Shown one piece after another: positions 2,249-23,036 of a stretch of 34,762 nucleotides of DNA. The DNA lies in assembly GCA_009773355.1 (NCBI GenBank), contig WRPG01000086.1, forward strand, positions 1 through 34,762. Direction: 5' to 3'. Source of the DNA: Limisphaerales bacterium (GTDB lineage: Bacteria > Verrucomicrobiota > Verrucomicrobiia > Limisphaerales > SXTU01). How positions within the stretch are numbered: the first letter of the stretch is position 1; each line of letters opens with the position of its first letter. The notes beneath the pieces were generated by a model. That model saw only the letters and a list, made by a program, of their open reading frames with translations, made no database searches and was not told the origin of the DNA. The position numbers and the translations under genes were made by a program.

Positions 2249-5200
2249 ATGAAGGCTGACTTGCAGCGCGCCATCGGCCTCGGTGGCAACGCCTCCCCGC
2301 TCACCGACCCCAAGCTCGTCACCTACATCAACCTCAAGCTCGCCGCGCTCGGCTGCCCCACGCTCGACACGGCGGACGCGGCGGAGTTCCACGACCTCAC
2401 CGAGTCGCTCCTCGCGCGGCATCGCGAGACGGAGCGGCTGCTTTCCGACTACCAGGCACCGGTGGACTGGCGCATCCAGCAGTTCCTCGACGAATACCTG
2501 CACGAGACCGGCGTGGCTGTGCGGCTGCCGCACCAGACTTTCGTGCTGGACCGGCACGGCGTCGCGCGCGCGCTGTCGCTGCCGCCGGACAAGGATGAGT
2601 TCTGCTCCGACATTGTCAGCTCGTATCGGGTGCGGCAGGGCGTGCTGCACAACCCGGCCAAGGACAAGCGCACGACCGCCGGTGTCTTCCACGTCGCCGA
2701 GGGCGGCCTGCCGATTCCCGACGACAAGAAGGTCGTGCCCGCCCACACGTTTGGGCTGATGCTCCAGGCCGCGCTGAAGCCACCGCAGAAACTGCTGCGC
2801 CTGCCCTTCACGGCATCGCAGCCGGTGCCGGCGGAGTGCTTCGTCTCACTGCTGCTGCGGCCGCTCGTGTGTCCGGCCGTGCCGGGCTTCTGCGCGGAGA
2901 AGACGATGGAGATTCGCTTCTTCGCGCCGGGCAACCTCGTCAGCAACCTCGACTTCGTCGAAAGCATCTTCGGCAACGCGGGCGACCCGTATCTGCCGGT
3001 CAACGACGCGGCGCTGGACGTGGAGCATTGGACCGGCCACACCGGCTGCGTCATCCTCGCGCCGCATCTCACCACGGTGACGAAGAAGGACGCGGGCCTG
3101 CCGCACTGGGACAAGGCCACCGAGCGCCAGCGCCGCGACGGCATGTGCTGGCGCGGCGAGGACGAGCGCTACAACGACGGCTCCGCGTTCAAGCTCACCG
3201 CGCGCGACGAGTCCGGCGTCATCGTCACGCTCATCGCGGACAACTATTTCGGTTACTGCAAGAAGGAGGTGAAGACGCAAATCAGCTTCGCCGCGAATCT
3301 CTTCGGCCTCTGCGAGGAGGAGCACTCCGGCGGCGCGCTGGTTTTCCCGAGCTACGACCTCGGCGAGGAGTTTGCCGGCGGAGTCCATGTGCAGGACCGC
3401 GGGCACTCGTTTGAGGATGCGGCGGCGCAGTTCGCAGACGTGATGGAGCTGAAACCCGAGGGTTACGCCGTGGACCGGAAGTTCGCCGACGTGCTCTACG
3501 TGCCGGAGGACGCGAGCTTCGACCTCCGCACACAGTTGGTGACGTGGACCAACGAGCGCGGGCCGCAGAGCGTCAAGCTGCTCGCCGGGCATACTTACGT
3601 CCGGCCCAGCGGCTACAAGGTCCAGATGGAGAAGCCGGGCAACCGCGCGTGGCGGCTGGTCGGCACGCGCGGCGAAGGCACCTTCTGCCACAAGCCCTGC
3701 ACCGTCTCCGGCGGCGGCAAGTCGGAGATTTCCAAGTCGCTCTCCGACGCGATTCTGCAAGGCCCGGTCTTCGTCGCCAACTTCAGGCAGGACTTCGACA
3801 CGGTGGCCGGGCTGCTGGAGCGCGACTACTCGCAGCGCTTCCGCGACCCGGAGCGCAACGGCACGGACGCGCGCACGGTCATGAGCCGCGAGCGTTCCCT
3901 CGGCTCCGTCATCAAGCTGCTCACGCCGTCGCCGCGGGACTACGCGGACGAGTTCAACGCCTGGCTGGAGGCCATCCCGCAGTATGTGAAGGAGCTGGTC
4001 TTCGTGGTGAAGCGCTTCCACAAGCCGGAATGGGGCAAGAACTGGCGCGAGCACTTCGGCGTGGACATCGTCAACGGCGTGCCCGGCTACGAGCTGAAGT
4101 GCGACAACCGCAAGCTGGTGACCAACTACCTGCGCGTGGGCTTCGACCCCGACGGCGCGTGGCGCGTGTTCAGCCTGCGCAAGGATTTCCACCCCGCGAT
4201 GAAGCTCCAACAGGAGGACGACATCAGCGCGAGCGTGGTGGTGCCGGCGGCGGTTGTGAAGAAAGACAGCTCTCCTGCGCCCCAGCCGGCGAGCACCGAA
4301 GCGGCGGCGGGAGCAACCGCCTTCCTCACGCGCGCCTCCTTCGCCGGGCCTTCAGACCCGGGCCGCTCGCTGAAGTTCGTCCAGAACTGCGAGTATCGCC
4401 TCTTCCAGCGGCCCGACGACGCGGTGCATCGCGGCTACGACAAGCAGGCCGAGAGCGACTTCGCGCAGCCGGGCAATTTCTTCTCCAACTACCAGCCGCT
4501 CACGCGGGCCGACGCGCGGCACGAGCTGGAGGACAGCATCAACTTCGTGAAGTTCACGCCGCCGATGGCCGACCTCATCCGCGCCGCCGCGAGGGAGACG
4601 GGCCGGCCCAAGTTCTTCGTCAGCTCCGCCCAGCCGCGCCTCGTGGACGGCAAGATGACGAAGAACCCGCGCTACCTCCAAAACCGCCACGACCTCATCC
4701 ACCCGCGCGAGTTCCACCTCGCCGAGATGGCCACACGCCTCTTCCGCCGCGTGCCGACGAGCGAACCGCTGCACCGGCCCGTCAACGCCGTGCTGCCGGG
4801 CCGTCGCAACAACCCGCCGGAGCCGGGCGTGCGGCCACTGTGCGTCTTCAATCCGATTCACCATCTCGAACTGCCGGAGCTGTTCATCGAGTTCATCTCC
4901 AGCATGACCGGCAAGTCGCCGTCCACCACCGGCGCGGGTTCCGAGGGCGCGCTCACCAAGGGGCCGTTCAACGCGCTGCATCCCATCATTGACCTCAACG
5001 CCGCGCTCGTGAGCCACATCCTCACCGGCGGCGGCGTGTTCGTGACCTGCGCCGGCAGCGTCGGCCCGAATGTGCGCGTGGACCACGACATCAGCCTGCT
5101 CGTGCCCGAGCTGTGGTGCCGCATGGGGCCGGAGGAGCGCGACCCGGAGTTCATGAAGCGCGAGGGCTACCTGGAGCGCTGCGAGGACTTCGACTTCAAC

Positions 5201-20552: not shown

Positions 20553-20759
20553 TCAGCGGACGGCGGCTTTCGTTGGCATCGCGAGATTGGATACATGGTC
20601 CAAGTCCACGATGTGCAGGTGCTCGCCGTCCGCCACGACGGCGACTGTCTTCGCCTCGTTGAACATCACGCACTCGGGATGCTTGATCCGGATGACGCGC
20701 GCGTTGTCGAGGACCAGTTCAAAGGGAATGAACTTCCGCTTGTTCAAGGCTTTGGTCAT
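20553..20759 (-). CDS. Small conserved protein of the 'PF.PF / HPE' family (68 aa)
   Basis: The sequence has the layout of a short protein family common in Planctomycetes and Verrucomicrobia: basic start, RKFIPFELVLDNARVIRIKHPE, a spacer, then VADGEHLHIVDLDHVSNL. It looks like a compact beta-rich fold; no function is known to me. It is convergent with the serine hydrolase (31 bp gap) and divergent from the restriction controller. ATG 20759 (MTKALNK) is preferred; an in-frame ATG at 20774 would add five residues. Neither has a clear ribosome-binding site. Confidence 0.7.
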   Translation of the reverse strand: MTKALNKRKFIPFELVLDNARVIRIKHPECVMFNEAKTVAVVADGEHLHIVDLDHVSNLAMPTKAAVR

Positions 20760-20823
20760 GGTGGCGACTCGCATGAGGGAAAACTGCCACGTTCGAGTTG
20801 GTTGGCAATTTGTCTCGTTGGCC

Positions 20824-20837
20824 TGTTACACATCGTC
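20824..20837. promoter_or_regulatory. Candidate controller-protein site upstream of the XRE regulator
   Basis: The 14-mer TGTTACACATCGTC matches 13 of 14 bases of TGTGACACATCGTC at 23002-23015, just upstream of the methyltransferase start. A shared site before both genes of a restriction-modification locus is the expected pattern for autoregulation by a C protein. Binding is inferred only. Confidence 0.45.
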
Positions 20838-20876
20838 CGTGGACGCATCATCTGCATTGCGGGTTAGATTCGCAGC

Positions 20877-21128
20877 GTGCCATCCCGACAATCCATCCTG
20901 CAAAACTTCGGCCAGCTCATTGTTAAGCGGCGCAAGGCGCAGGGCATCTCGCAAGAGGAACTTGCGCATCGGGCGAGCTTGGACCGGACGTATGTTTCCG
21001 GGCTGGAGCGCGGCGTCCGCAACCCTTCGCTGACGGCGATTGTGAAGGTGGCGCAGGGATTGGGCATCACGACCGACAAGCTCTTGAAAGGGCTTGAGGA
21101 CGGGGCGAAGGCAGGGAGGCAGCGGTGA
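20877..21128 (+). CDS. XRE-family HTH regulator, probable restriction-modification controller (C) protein (83 aa)
   Basis: The protein is almost entirely one HTH_3 domain (about 10-68): ISQEELAHRASLDRTYVSG is the helix-turn-helix, followed by LERGVRNPSLTAIVKVA and LGITTDKLLKGL. Size and layout fit controller proteins of type II restriction-modification systems, which set the timing of nuclease expression. It starts at GTG 20877, 6 nt after a TAGATT hexamer, and its stop overlaps the nuclease start as GTGA, the usual C-R arrangement. A motif upstream recurs before the methyltransferase. A generic XRE regulator is the alternative. Confidence 0.85.
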   Translation: MPSRQSILQNFGQLIVKRRKAQGISQEELAHRASLDRTYVSGLERGVRNPSLTAIVKVAQGLGITTDKLLKGLEDGAKAGRQR

Positions 21129-21835
21129 ACAAGCCCAAGCGTGGGAGTCTGCAGGCCAAGGTGCGGGCGGTCCTCGAGGACGGGAACTGGCATTGTCGTA
21201 GCCACGAATACAAGCGCATCCCCAGTGGGCAACTCGCAGGCGGCGGTGGCATCCAAGGATTGCAGCGCGGCACTTCGGCGCGACCCGGCCTGAAGATTGA
21301 ATCCAAGACGGACCTCTGTGAGCATTGCGGCAGGAAGACCCGCTGGGACAGATGGACTGGCGAACACCAGACCGCGAATGCGCCGGCAAGTATCCCGAAA
21401 GCACTCGCCGAGAAGGTGCTGGCACACTTCGGCAACGTGGATTCCATTGAGCAACGCGTGCGTCCAGTTCACGAACTGGTCATTGACCACCGCTTCCCGA
21501 TGATTCGCTGGGGAGCCACCGAGACCAAGCTGTCAGGGGAAATGTCCGAGGCGGACATCGAGCAGAAGTTTCAACTGCTCAAGTTTGACGGAAGCGGAAA
21601 CCACAATCTCCTCAAGAGCCGGGCTTGTGAGGTTTGCTTCAAAACCGGCCAGCGAGGGACACCGTTCGGAATCCGGTTCTTCTATGAGGGGAATGACCGC
21701 TGGCCAGGCCACACGCCAGCCTCTGGAACCCAAGCAGAAAAGGGCTGCATCGGCTGCGGTTGGTATGACTTCGCCAAGTGGCGCGAGGCGCTCAACCTCA
21801 AGCTGGCCGCTCCATCAGCCGCCACTCTGCCGTAG
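21125..21835 (+). CDS. HNH-type restriction endonuclease candidate (236 aa)
   Basis: The sequence shows an HNH/beta-beta-alpha-metal nuclease: CxxC at 65-68 (CEHC), the core D121-H122 in VIDHRFPMIRWG, N159/N161 in GNHNLLKSRAC, and a second CxxC at 168-171, with a further CIGC at 208-211. The cysteine pairs should bind structural zinc and the His the catalytic metal. Position between a controller gene (4-nt overlap) and a convergent m5C methyltransferase makes a type II restriction enzyme the natural reading. The recognition sequence cannot be told. Its 3' end overlaps the methyltransferase 3' end by 38 bp. The locus is visibly less GC-rich than its surroundings, consistent with transfer. Confidence 0.78.
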   Translation: MNKPKRGSLQAKVRAVLEDGNWHCRSHEYKRIPSGQLAGGGGIQGLQRGTSARPGLKIESKTDLCEHCGRKTRWDRWTGEHQTANAPASIPKALAEKVLAHFGNVDSIEQRVRPVHELVIDHRFPMIRWGATETKLSGEMSEADIEQKFQLLKFDGSGNHNLLKSRACEVCFKTGQRGTPFGIRFFYEGNDRWPGHTPASGTQAEKGCIGCGWYDFAKWREALNLKLAAPSAATLP

Positions 21836-22988
21836 CCGTGCATGGGTCCGGCTGCTTGTCGGCCAGCGCGCGGAGTGAAGGGAGCAAAGCCTTGCCAATG
21901 ACTTCCGCCAGCCGGGGCGGCACGGCGTTGCCGATTTGCCACATGGCCTTCTTCATTGGGCCGCAAAAGATGAAGTCGTCAGGGAAAGTTTGGAGCCGCG
22001 CCATTTCCCGGGCCGAGAGCACCCGGTTCAAGTGCGGGTGGACGTGTGTGCCGCCGTGGTTCTCCTTGATGGTCATGCTGGGCAGGCCGGGATACTGCCG
22101 CTTCCACGCGTCGAAGAAAGATTCGTAAAGCGACCCTCCAGGCGGAACCTTCGCCAGCCGCGCCTCCATTTCCGACGAGTGCCTGGTCCACTCGTGGTTG
22201 ATTTCCGGGATACGGTCGTTGGCCGGCAAGCCGTGGAGTGCGCTTTCAATGGGGCGGTAGCGGTCGGGAGTCAGTTGGGGCAAGGGATACGGGTTGCATC
22301 GCCCAAAGCGGTTCGCGATGAAGATGGCGCGCGGACGCAGTTGTGCCACGCCATAATTCGCCGACTCCAGCACCGCCACTGAAACCGTGGGATACCCTGC
22401 CTCAGCAAACGCCTCCATGATGGCGCGGTAAAACGCACCGCTCGCCAAGGTCAGGATGCCGGGGACATTTTCCATTACGACAAACCAAGGCTTCACCGTC
22501 CGCACGACCCGCATGAATTCGCGGAACAACTGATTGCGCTCGTCCTTCGGGTTGCGGAAGCCAGCGACGGAAAAGCCCTGACAAGGCGGACCGCCCACTA
22601 CGAGATGAATCTCGCCAGCGCCGGCTAATGCTGCCGCAGGGTCAAAGTCCTGAATCGGGCCGCGATGCAGCCTGCACTTGGGAAAGTTGCGGTGATGCGT
22701 GTCGCAGGCGATGGGCACGATCTCCACGGCGGCCTTGGGCGTGTAGCCGGCGCGAGTGAAGCCGCACGTCATGCCACCGGCACCGCAGAACAAATCTATG
22801 AACTGAAAGCCATTGGGCTGAGGAACCTGCTCGCTAAAATCTACAAACACCCTTGCCGTATCCGACGTGTCGTTTTCCAGCTTCTTGCGAATGCCCTCGT
22901 AGCGGCCAAGACGCGGCTTCTTCTGCCGGACGGGCCGCACGGCAGGCACGTCCAGCAGTAAGCTTTCGGTTGTCGCTTCGATCACCAT
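21798..22988 (-). CDS. DNA (cytosine-5) methyltransferase (396 aa)
   Basis: All key m5C methyltransferase motifs are present in order: motif I FIDLFCGAGG (about 61-70), motif IV GGPPCQGFS with the catalytic Cys (about 135), motif VI ENVPGI, motif VIII RPRAIFIANR, then REMARLQTFPDDF and QIGNAVPP (IX-X). The variable target-recognition region lies between VIII and IX. It protects the host DNA from the adjacent HNH nuclease. ATG 22988 is preferred: a TATCTG hexamer ends 7 nt before it and a palindrome sits directly upstream. The alternative ATG 23033 would place the palindrome inside the coding region and start 3 nt after the ftsK stop. Confidence 0.92.
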   Translation of the reverse strand: MVIEATTESLLLDVPAVRPVRQKKPRLGRYEGIRKKLENDTSDTARVFVDFSEQVPQPNGFQFIDLFCGAGGMTCGFTRAGYTPKAAVEIVPIACDTHHRNFPKCRLHRGPIQDFDPAAALAGAGEIHLVVGGPPCQGFSVAGFRNPKDERNQLFREFMRVVRTVKPWFVVMENVPGILTLASGAFYRAIMEAFAEAGYPTVSVAVLESANYGVAQLRPRAIFIANRFGRCNPYPLPQLTPDRYRPIESALHGLPANDRIPEINHEWTRHSSEMEARLAKVPPGGSLYESFFDAWKRQYPGLPSMTIKENHGGTHVHPHLNRVLSAREMARLQTFPDDFIFCGPMKKAMWQIGNAVPPRLAEVIGKALLPSLRALADKQPDPCTATAEWRLMERPA

Positions 22989-23000
22989 ACTTGGCCAGAT

Positions 23001-23015
23001 ATGTGACACATCGTC
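23001..23015. promoter_or_regulatory. Palindromic operator candidate at the methyltransferase promoter
   Basis: ATGTGACACAT (23001-23011) is a perfect palindrome around a central base. It overlaps the region next to the TATCTG -10-like hexamer of the minus-strand methyltransferase. Together with the following TCGTC it matches 13 of 14 bases of the site upstream of the HTH controller gene, so controller binding is plausible. Confidence 0.5.
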
Positions 23016-23036
23016 TTCAACATGGCAAGCCATTGT

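Follow-up and report, generated by a model that had tools for sequence, protein, structure and literature searches.

Control of restriction-modification by C proteins

In the Esp1396I restriction-modification (R-M) system, the operon for the controller protein and the restriction enzyme (C-R) is convergent with the methyltransferase gene (M). C-R is activated through a distal C-box and later repressed through a proximal one, and M is repressed from a single box at its own promoter; repression of M by a C protein is described in the same source as unusual (PMC4041747). Published descriptions of C-boxes give either GAC and GTC flanking a spacer, which is TATA in the best Esp1396I site, or an 11-bp consensus, GACTTATAGTC; TG is conserved outside, and the pair before C-R is spaced by about 4 bp (PMC3758141, PMC4321490). 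C RNAs that start at the start codon are reported as common in C-controlled systems (PMC4824078, PMC2997769). Systems of the PvuII/AhdI type are described with a short C protein, a C-R operon, tandem C-boxes and overlapping C and R genes (PMC2997769, PMC4824078). In Kpn2I, as described in PMC6237814, the M promoter is repressed by the C protein, with divergent C and M promoters, a site inside the C coding region and an R gene that is independent of C.

The locus analysed here lies in a 34,762-nucleotide stretch of a Limisphaerales bacterium (contig WRPG01000086.1), referred to below as the window. Like Esp1396I, it has a C-R operon convergent with M, two putative boxes before C-R and one before M, boxes of the GAC/GTC kind with TG outside (PMC3758141, PMC4041747), and a distance of about 4 bp between the tandem boxes (PMC4321490). 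At its left the M-side box here reads TG-T-GAC, just as the Esp1396I OL oligonucleotide from the literature does at its left end, and 11-bp boxes about 4 bp apart match the GACTTATAGTC consensus class (PMC3758141, PMC4321490). In contrast to the TATA-centred spacers of Esp1396I, the spacers here are ACATC and GCATC on the C side and ACATC on the M side. Because no spacer is TATA-centred we do not call the locus an Esp1396I orthologue, which does not bar C-control itself; the comparison covers layout and C-box pattern. Unlike the PvuII/AhdI-type systems, with which it shares the short C protein, the operon, the tandem boxes and the gene overlap, the locus has an extra C-box before M. With Kpn2I it would share, by analogy, repression of M by the C protein, whereas here C-R converges on M and carries boxes of its own. 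The locus opens no new kind of system; its layout is already known from Esp1396I.

Its gene content marks the locus as a type II R-M cassette that includes a controller-like HTH gene. The first-pass annotation had described an HTH gene, an overlapping nuclease gene and a convergent m5C methyltransferase gene, and the open reading frames and profile matches bear this out. The C gene (20877–21128, + strand) starts with GTG and encodes an 83-aa XRE/HTH_3 protein. It overlaps by 4 bp the gene for a predicted type II restriction endonuclease (R; 21125–21835, + strand, 236 aa, GTG start), which in turn overlaps the convergent M gene tail-to-tail by 38 bp. M, with its stop at 21798, encodes a predicted C-5 cytosine methyltransferase of 396 aa from the favoured ATG (21798–22988, − strand) and matches PF00145 (4.3e-60, 204 bits). 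R and M are both present here, and the pair also stays together in G450, a genome from another family of the same order, in which C, R and M are arranged as here and flanked by different genes.

The nuclease is matched by the PADLOC model REase_II (PDLC03537; 1.3e-86, 288 bits), and the Pfam search gave no family above cut-off and no HNH match. Residues D121-H122 and N161 and the cysteine pairs C65/C68, C168/C171 and C208/C211 are invariant in all eight aligned nuclease sequences; in our own reading, D121-H122 and N161 with the three CxxC pairs would make an HNH-type (beta-beta-alpha-metal) site. PF05315 (ICEA) is matched by four of the seven aligned members (best 2.6e-6), and the window protein itself does not match it. 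Foldseek with an AlphaFold model of the nuclease (pLDDT 71) returned nothing at E ≤ 0.001, the best hit being Cap5 (E 0.81), and VIA-align gave Z scores up to 6.2, mostly for winged-helix-like matches to residues 1–84. At E ≤ 0.001 the nuclease is found in three of 320 genomes of the order, namely this one, G450 (79% identical to ours) and G594 (50% identical over residues 94–233). The family occurs in five of 387 genomes of the phylum, this genome included, and in none of 14 control genomes. A plasmid search gave only two records, matching 25% of R, and a phage search gave no match for R. Among viral contigs, eight loci have an R match, with no match for C and none for M.

Candidate operators before C-R and before M

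Two 14-mers, TGTTACACATCGTC at 20824–20837 and TGTGACACATCGTC at 23002–23015, both on the + strand, match at 13 of 14 positions. The first-pass annotation had placed such a pair upstream of the HTH and methyltransferase genes, which the letters confirm, and had assigned them to two gaps of about 100 bp, which holds for the C side (102 bp) and not for the M side, where the gap is 48 bp if ATG 22988 is used. It had also judged the match unlikely by chance. Only 2 of 2000 pairs of dinucleotide-shuffled gaps (102 and 48 bp) reached 13/14 with either strand counted, a result that is moderate by itself because the pair was picked after the fact. The decisive check on the pair is its retention in G450. 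Both 14-mers recur there letter for letter, the left copy with T and the right copy with G, as here. The left 14-mer stands 53 bp from the C start codon in both genomes, and the right box 16 nt from the aligned M ATG in both. As the full set was found in just one other genome, the apparent conservation of the operator pair is that of a single genome pair.

An 11-bp palindrome, ATGTGACACAT, to which the first-pass annotation had drawn attention, is present at 23001–23011. It is not the shared element, being broken in the C-side copy (TGTTACACAT) and replaced by ATGTGTGACACAT in G450, and it was rejected as the binding site. The element common to both sites is (T/G)AC-ACATC-GTC; the palindrome is probably the wrong dyad, and the C-box pattern TG-N-GAC-N5-GTC fits the copies better. 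Read in this way, the candidate distal operator on the C side (OL-like, + strand, 20824–20837, with its 11-bp box at 20827–20837) is TGT-TAC-ACATC-GTC, identical in G450, and departs from the consensus in having TAC for GAC. A second C-side box, absent from the first-pass annotation, would form the proximal operator (OR-like, + strand, 20842–20852); it reads GAC-GCATC-ATC here and GAC-ACATC-ATC in G450, with ATC for GTC, and lies 4 bp (CGTG) after the distal box and 24 bp before the GTG. Before C, this genome and G450 each agree with the tandem pattern GAC-N5-GTC-N4-GAC-N5-GTC at 10 of its 12 fixed positions, a score reached by 13 of 2000 dinucleotide shuffles of the 150 bp upstream of C in this genome and by 10 of 2000 in G450. 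Before the convergent M gene there is a single extra candidate C-box (OM-like, assigned to the − strand, 23002–23015, 11-bp box 23005–23015), which is TG-T-GAC-ACATC-GTC in the + strand reading and is identical in G450. Both genomes have weak promoter hexamers, the weakest being those before M. From its letters, TAGATT at 20865–20870 (+ strand) is a possible, weak −10 element of the C-R promoter.

The longest M reading frame opens further upstream, at ATG 23033, and from that start the M-side site would lie inside the gene and encode DDVSH, which is in frame in G450 as well. The HTH protein might then control only its own C-R operon, with the M-side copy a by-product of M coding or a product of chance. 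Such a reading gains from the unusual nature of M repression by C (PMC4041747) and from a relative, G097, that has no M-side box. Codon identity neither decides between the two starts nor excludes a coding by-product, as the same codon is used at 174 of the 321 residues (54%) shared by the two M genes. Against it, the residues flanking DDVSH differ between this genome and G450, G450 has an ATG at the position aligned with ATG 22988, and the N-terminus of the G594 methyltransferase (75% identical), given its nearest ATG, starts a few residues before a conserved LIDVP, without such an extension. For these reasons ATG 22988, with the M-side site upstream of M, is the favoured though not certain start. 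The C-side copy, moreover, is almost letter-identical although it does not lie in the M frame, and we consider control of C-R only to be unlikely.

We also asked how often the motif occurs elsewhere. In the assembly of 6,158,408 bases (6.16 Mb, completeness given as 95%), TGTNACACATCGTC has exactly two matches, both at the locus, and its backward control has none; with at most one mismatch there are five, three of them elsewhere, and the backward control has one. The first-pass annotation had stated that finding the motif at many unrelated genes would speak against its proposal, and the assembly holds no further exact 14-mer. Across the 320 genomes of the order, ACACATCGTCCGTG has matches in 11 genomes versus one for the backward control. 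No C-like protein or M was found within 1.5 kb in the eight genomes checked among the nine other than G000 and G450 (G686 was left out). The excess is provisionally taken as base composition, because about 11 would be expected in roughly 1.5 billion random bases by our own estimate. A scan for the tandem pattern in the 150 bp upstream of 18 other C homologues of the order gave one locus that beat all 200 mononucleotide shuffles, one at P 0.035 and 16 at or above P 0.05; the scan is weak because the gene starts were taken from the match, unchecked. The C-like genes of loci L013, L018, L021, L027, L028 and L030, also from this order, have a GGACTATGAGTC or GGACTATCAGTC-type sequence directly before the start codon and GTCCATAGAC-like sequences about 25–45 bp upstream as well, perhaps another C-box layout in which the box touches the start codon.

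On contig C50 of the same genome (L034:2725-5921), a second C-like gene, 44% identical to the window C, overlaps a 577-aa m5C methyltransferase-like gene, which is followed by a 131-aa ORF and a 256-aa ORF; in our own reading of the ORFs the last bears an HNH-like motif. This is probably a second C-linked R-M system. Its tandem score of 8/12 was matched by 568 of 2000 shuffles, so we do not read it as carrying this box, and cross-talk with it seems unlikely because its upstream sequence differs from the boxes in the window.

The cassette and its relatives

The cassette is 75% identical in DNA to that of G450, whose C protein is 81% identical to the window C. The longer blastn alignment covers 20823–23029, with 1656 identical columns out of 2213, opening one base before the distal site and closing just past the M-side box. 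The cassette looks inserted, or horizontally moved, judging from the comparison with the rest of the genus. The nuclease was found in none of the ten other genomes of the genus that were searched (completeness 71–95%). The ftsK homology of eight of these ten starts no more than 12 bases from the ftsK stop codon; that of G532 starts at a contig end, and G531 has no listed ftsK match. In G527, 86 bp lie between the ftsK homology and the end of a stretch homologous to 20575–20750, which in this genome is to the left of the cassette.

Since the two 14-mers have the same orientation and mark the outermost ends of the block shared with G450, and the cassette looks inserted, they could be the ends of a mobile cassette, either a target duplication or recombination sites, rather than operators. 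Allowing up to two mismatches, the 14-mer is absent from the 1001-base G527 junction stretch, so the pair is not a target duplication; none was found in the ftsK-end stretches of G524 and G529. The difference between left T and right G is identical in both genomes, fitting two kept roles. The tandem second box on the C side and the C-box pair before C in G097 also speak for operators, and we regard cassette ends as a very unlikely explanation.

Relatives with other gene combinations bear on which gene the box accompanies. In G594 the methyltransferase is kept, the HTH protein is only 38% identical and the nuclease is of a long form, and TG-N-GAC-N5-GTC is absent from the whole 7841-base contig. 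With M retained in G594 and both a close C and the box missing, the box appears to travel with the C protein and not with M. G097 has a homologous C-R pair and a convergent M of a different sort. Before its C gene stands TAC-TCATA-GTC-TGTA-GAC-ATAAA-GTC, matching 11 of 12 fixed positions and equalled by none of 2000 dinucleotide shuffles; in the 151 bp before its M there is no box with at least 5 of 6 fixed bases. The M-side box is present in the two loci found with this C protein, and absent in the relatives G594 and G097. On the G594 contig (C201; L037, L048:901-1062, 3797-3958), direct 162-bp copies, 91% identical, flank the M, nuclease and HTH genes. The repeat reads like an aldehyde dehydrogenase fragment, and the arrangement suggests insertion with duplication of the target region.

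At E ≤ 0.001 in tblastn, C has no match in the nuclease loci L002–L005, L008 and L050–L059 (L010 was left out, and L009 was covered only through the overlapping L050). Tandem nucleases of this family, one of a long form (about 310 aa) and one of a short form (about 240 aa), occur in four loci (L002, L052, L053 and L054; L053 and L054 share identical tblastn coordinates, and the L053 ORFs are unlisted). Three of the four sit on viral contigs. The m5C methyltransferase that follows the tandem nucleases is only distantly like the window M in L052, L053 and L054, and in L002 it has no match to the window M at E ≤ 0.001. The two nucleases are possibly the subunits of a two-subunit restriction enzyme. 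In L003 and L004 the short form comes after a different methyltransferase (with a DPPY motif, in our own reading). Two nuclease homologues look broken, one in two overlapping frames (L004:3977-4688) and one with its middle part missing (L005:3968-4330), and these look like decay or sequencing errors.

A closely related M accompanies only the short form in this genome and G450, and only the long form in G594. Swapping of the nuclease around one methyltransferase, long form versus short form, is a tentative reading of these combinations that we hold to be possible and rather doubtful.

The controller protein and a model for its action

The best PADLOC model for the HTH protein is Control_protein (1.1e-17), and the top three PADLOC models are all R-M control proteins. 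Its two best PDB chains are C.AhdI (6.9e-12) and C.BclI (4.4e-11), and C.Esp1396I is also among its best solved relatives. Four DNA-interface residues of C.Esp1396I have been tested by mutation, T36, Y37, R46 and S52 (PMC4041747). In our alignment, numbered with an inferred offset of −3 for the 82-residue chain, T, Y and R are kept in the controller protein, and S52 is replaced by A. That the HTH protein is a generic XRE repressor with a role unrelated to the R-M genes, as the breadth of HTH_3 (E ≤ 0.001 match in 191 of the 320 genomes of the order) and the matches to such models as PADLOC capH (4.2e-11), PADLOC HTH_VI (3.1e-12) and NCBIfam couple_hipB (2.5e-11, below that model's cut-off) might suggest, is scarcely credible beside these top-ranked control proteins, the 4-bp C/R overlap kept in G450 and the boxes upstream of both the operon and M.

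The proposal of the first-pass annotation, C-protein control of both genes, is supported by the homology of the HTH protein, by the sites kept in G450 and by the Esp1396I layout. By analogy with that system, we consider it highly probable that the locus is a type II R-M cassette which was moved horizontally and is controlled in an Esp1396I-like manner. After entry into a cell, M would be made at once from its own promoter, with C-R nearly silent. C would accumulate slowly, and a dimer at the distal box (20827–20837) would activate the C-R promoter and hence production of the nuclease. At higher levels of C the proximal box (20842–20852), which lies where a −35 element would be, would fill and turn C-R off, and M would be repressed by a C dimer on its single box, 16 nt from the M start codon. 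The predicted outcome is protection first, cutting later, and a bounded level of M. TAGATT, 6 bp before the GTG, would put the start of the C-R RNA at or next to the GTG, which would make it leaderless and would suit the reported frequency of such C RNAs in C-controlled systems.

If this model holds, Esp1396I-type control, in which a single regulator sets the timing of cutter and protector alike, would extend to another lineage. The putative operator pair has stayed whole along with its cassette in both families. Going by the boxes, this C protein would be expected to prefer a different spacer. Because one methyltransferase occurs with two forms of nuclease, part exchange among R-M systems has a natural test case here. 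If both forms recognise the same site, a two-nuclease system may have come apart into two systems with one nuclease and one switch each; and if nuclease swapping is true, the C-box variant with the ACATC spacer would have moved with one of the two systems.
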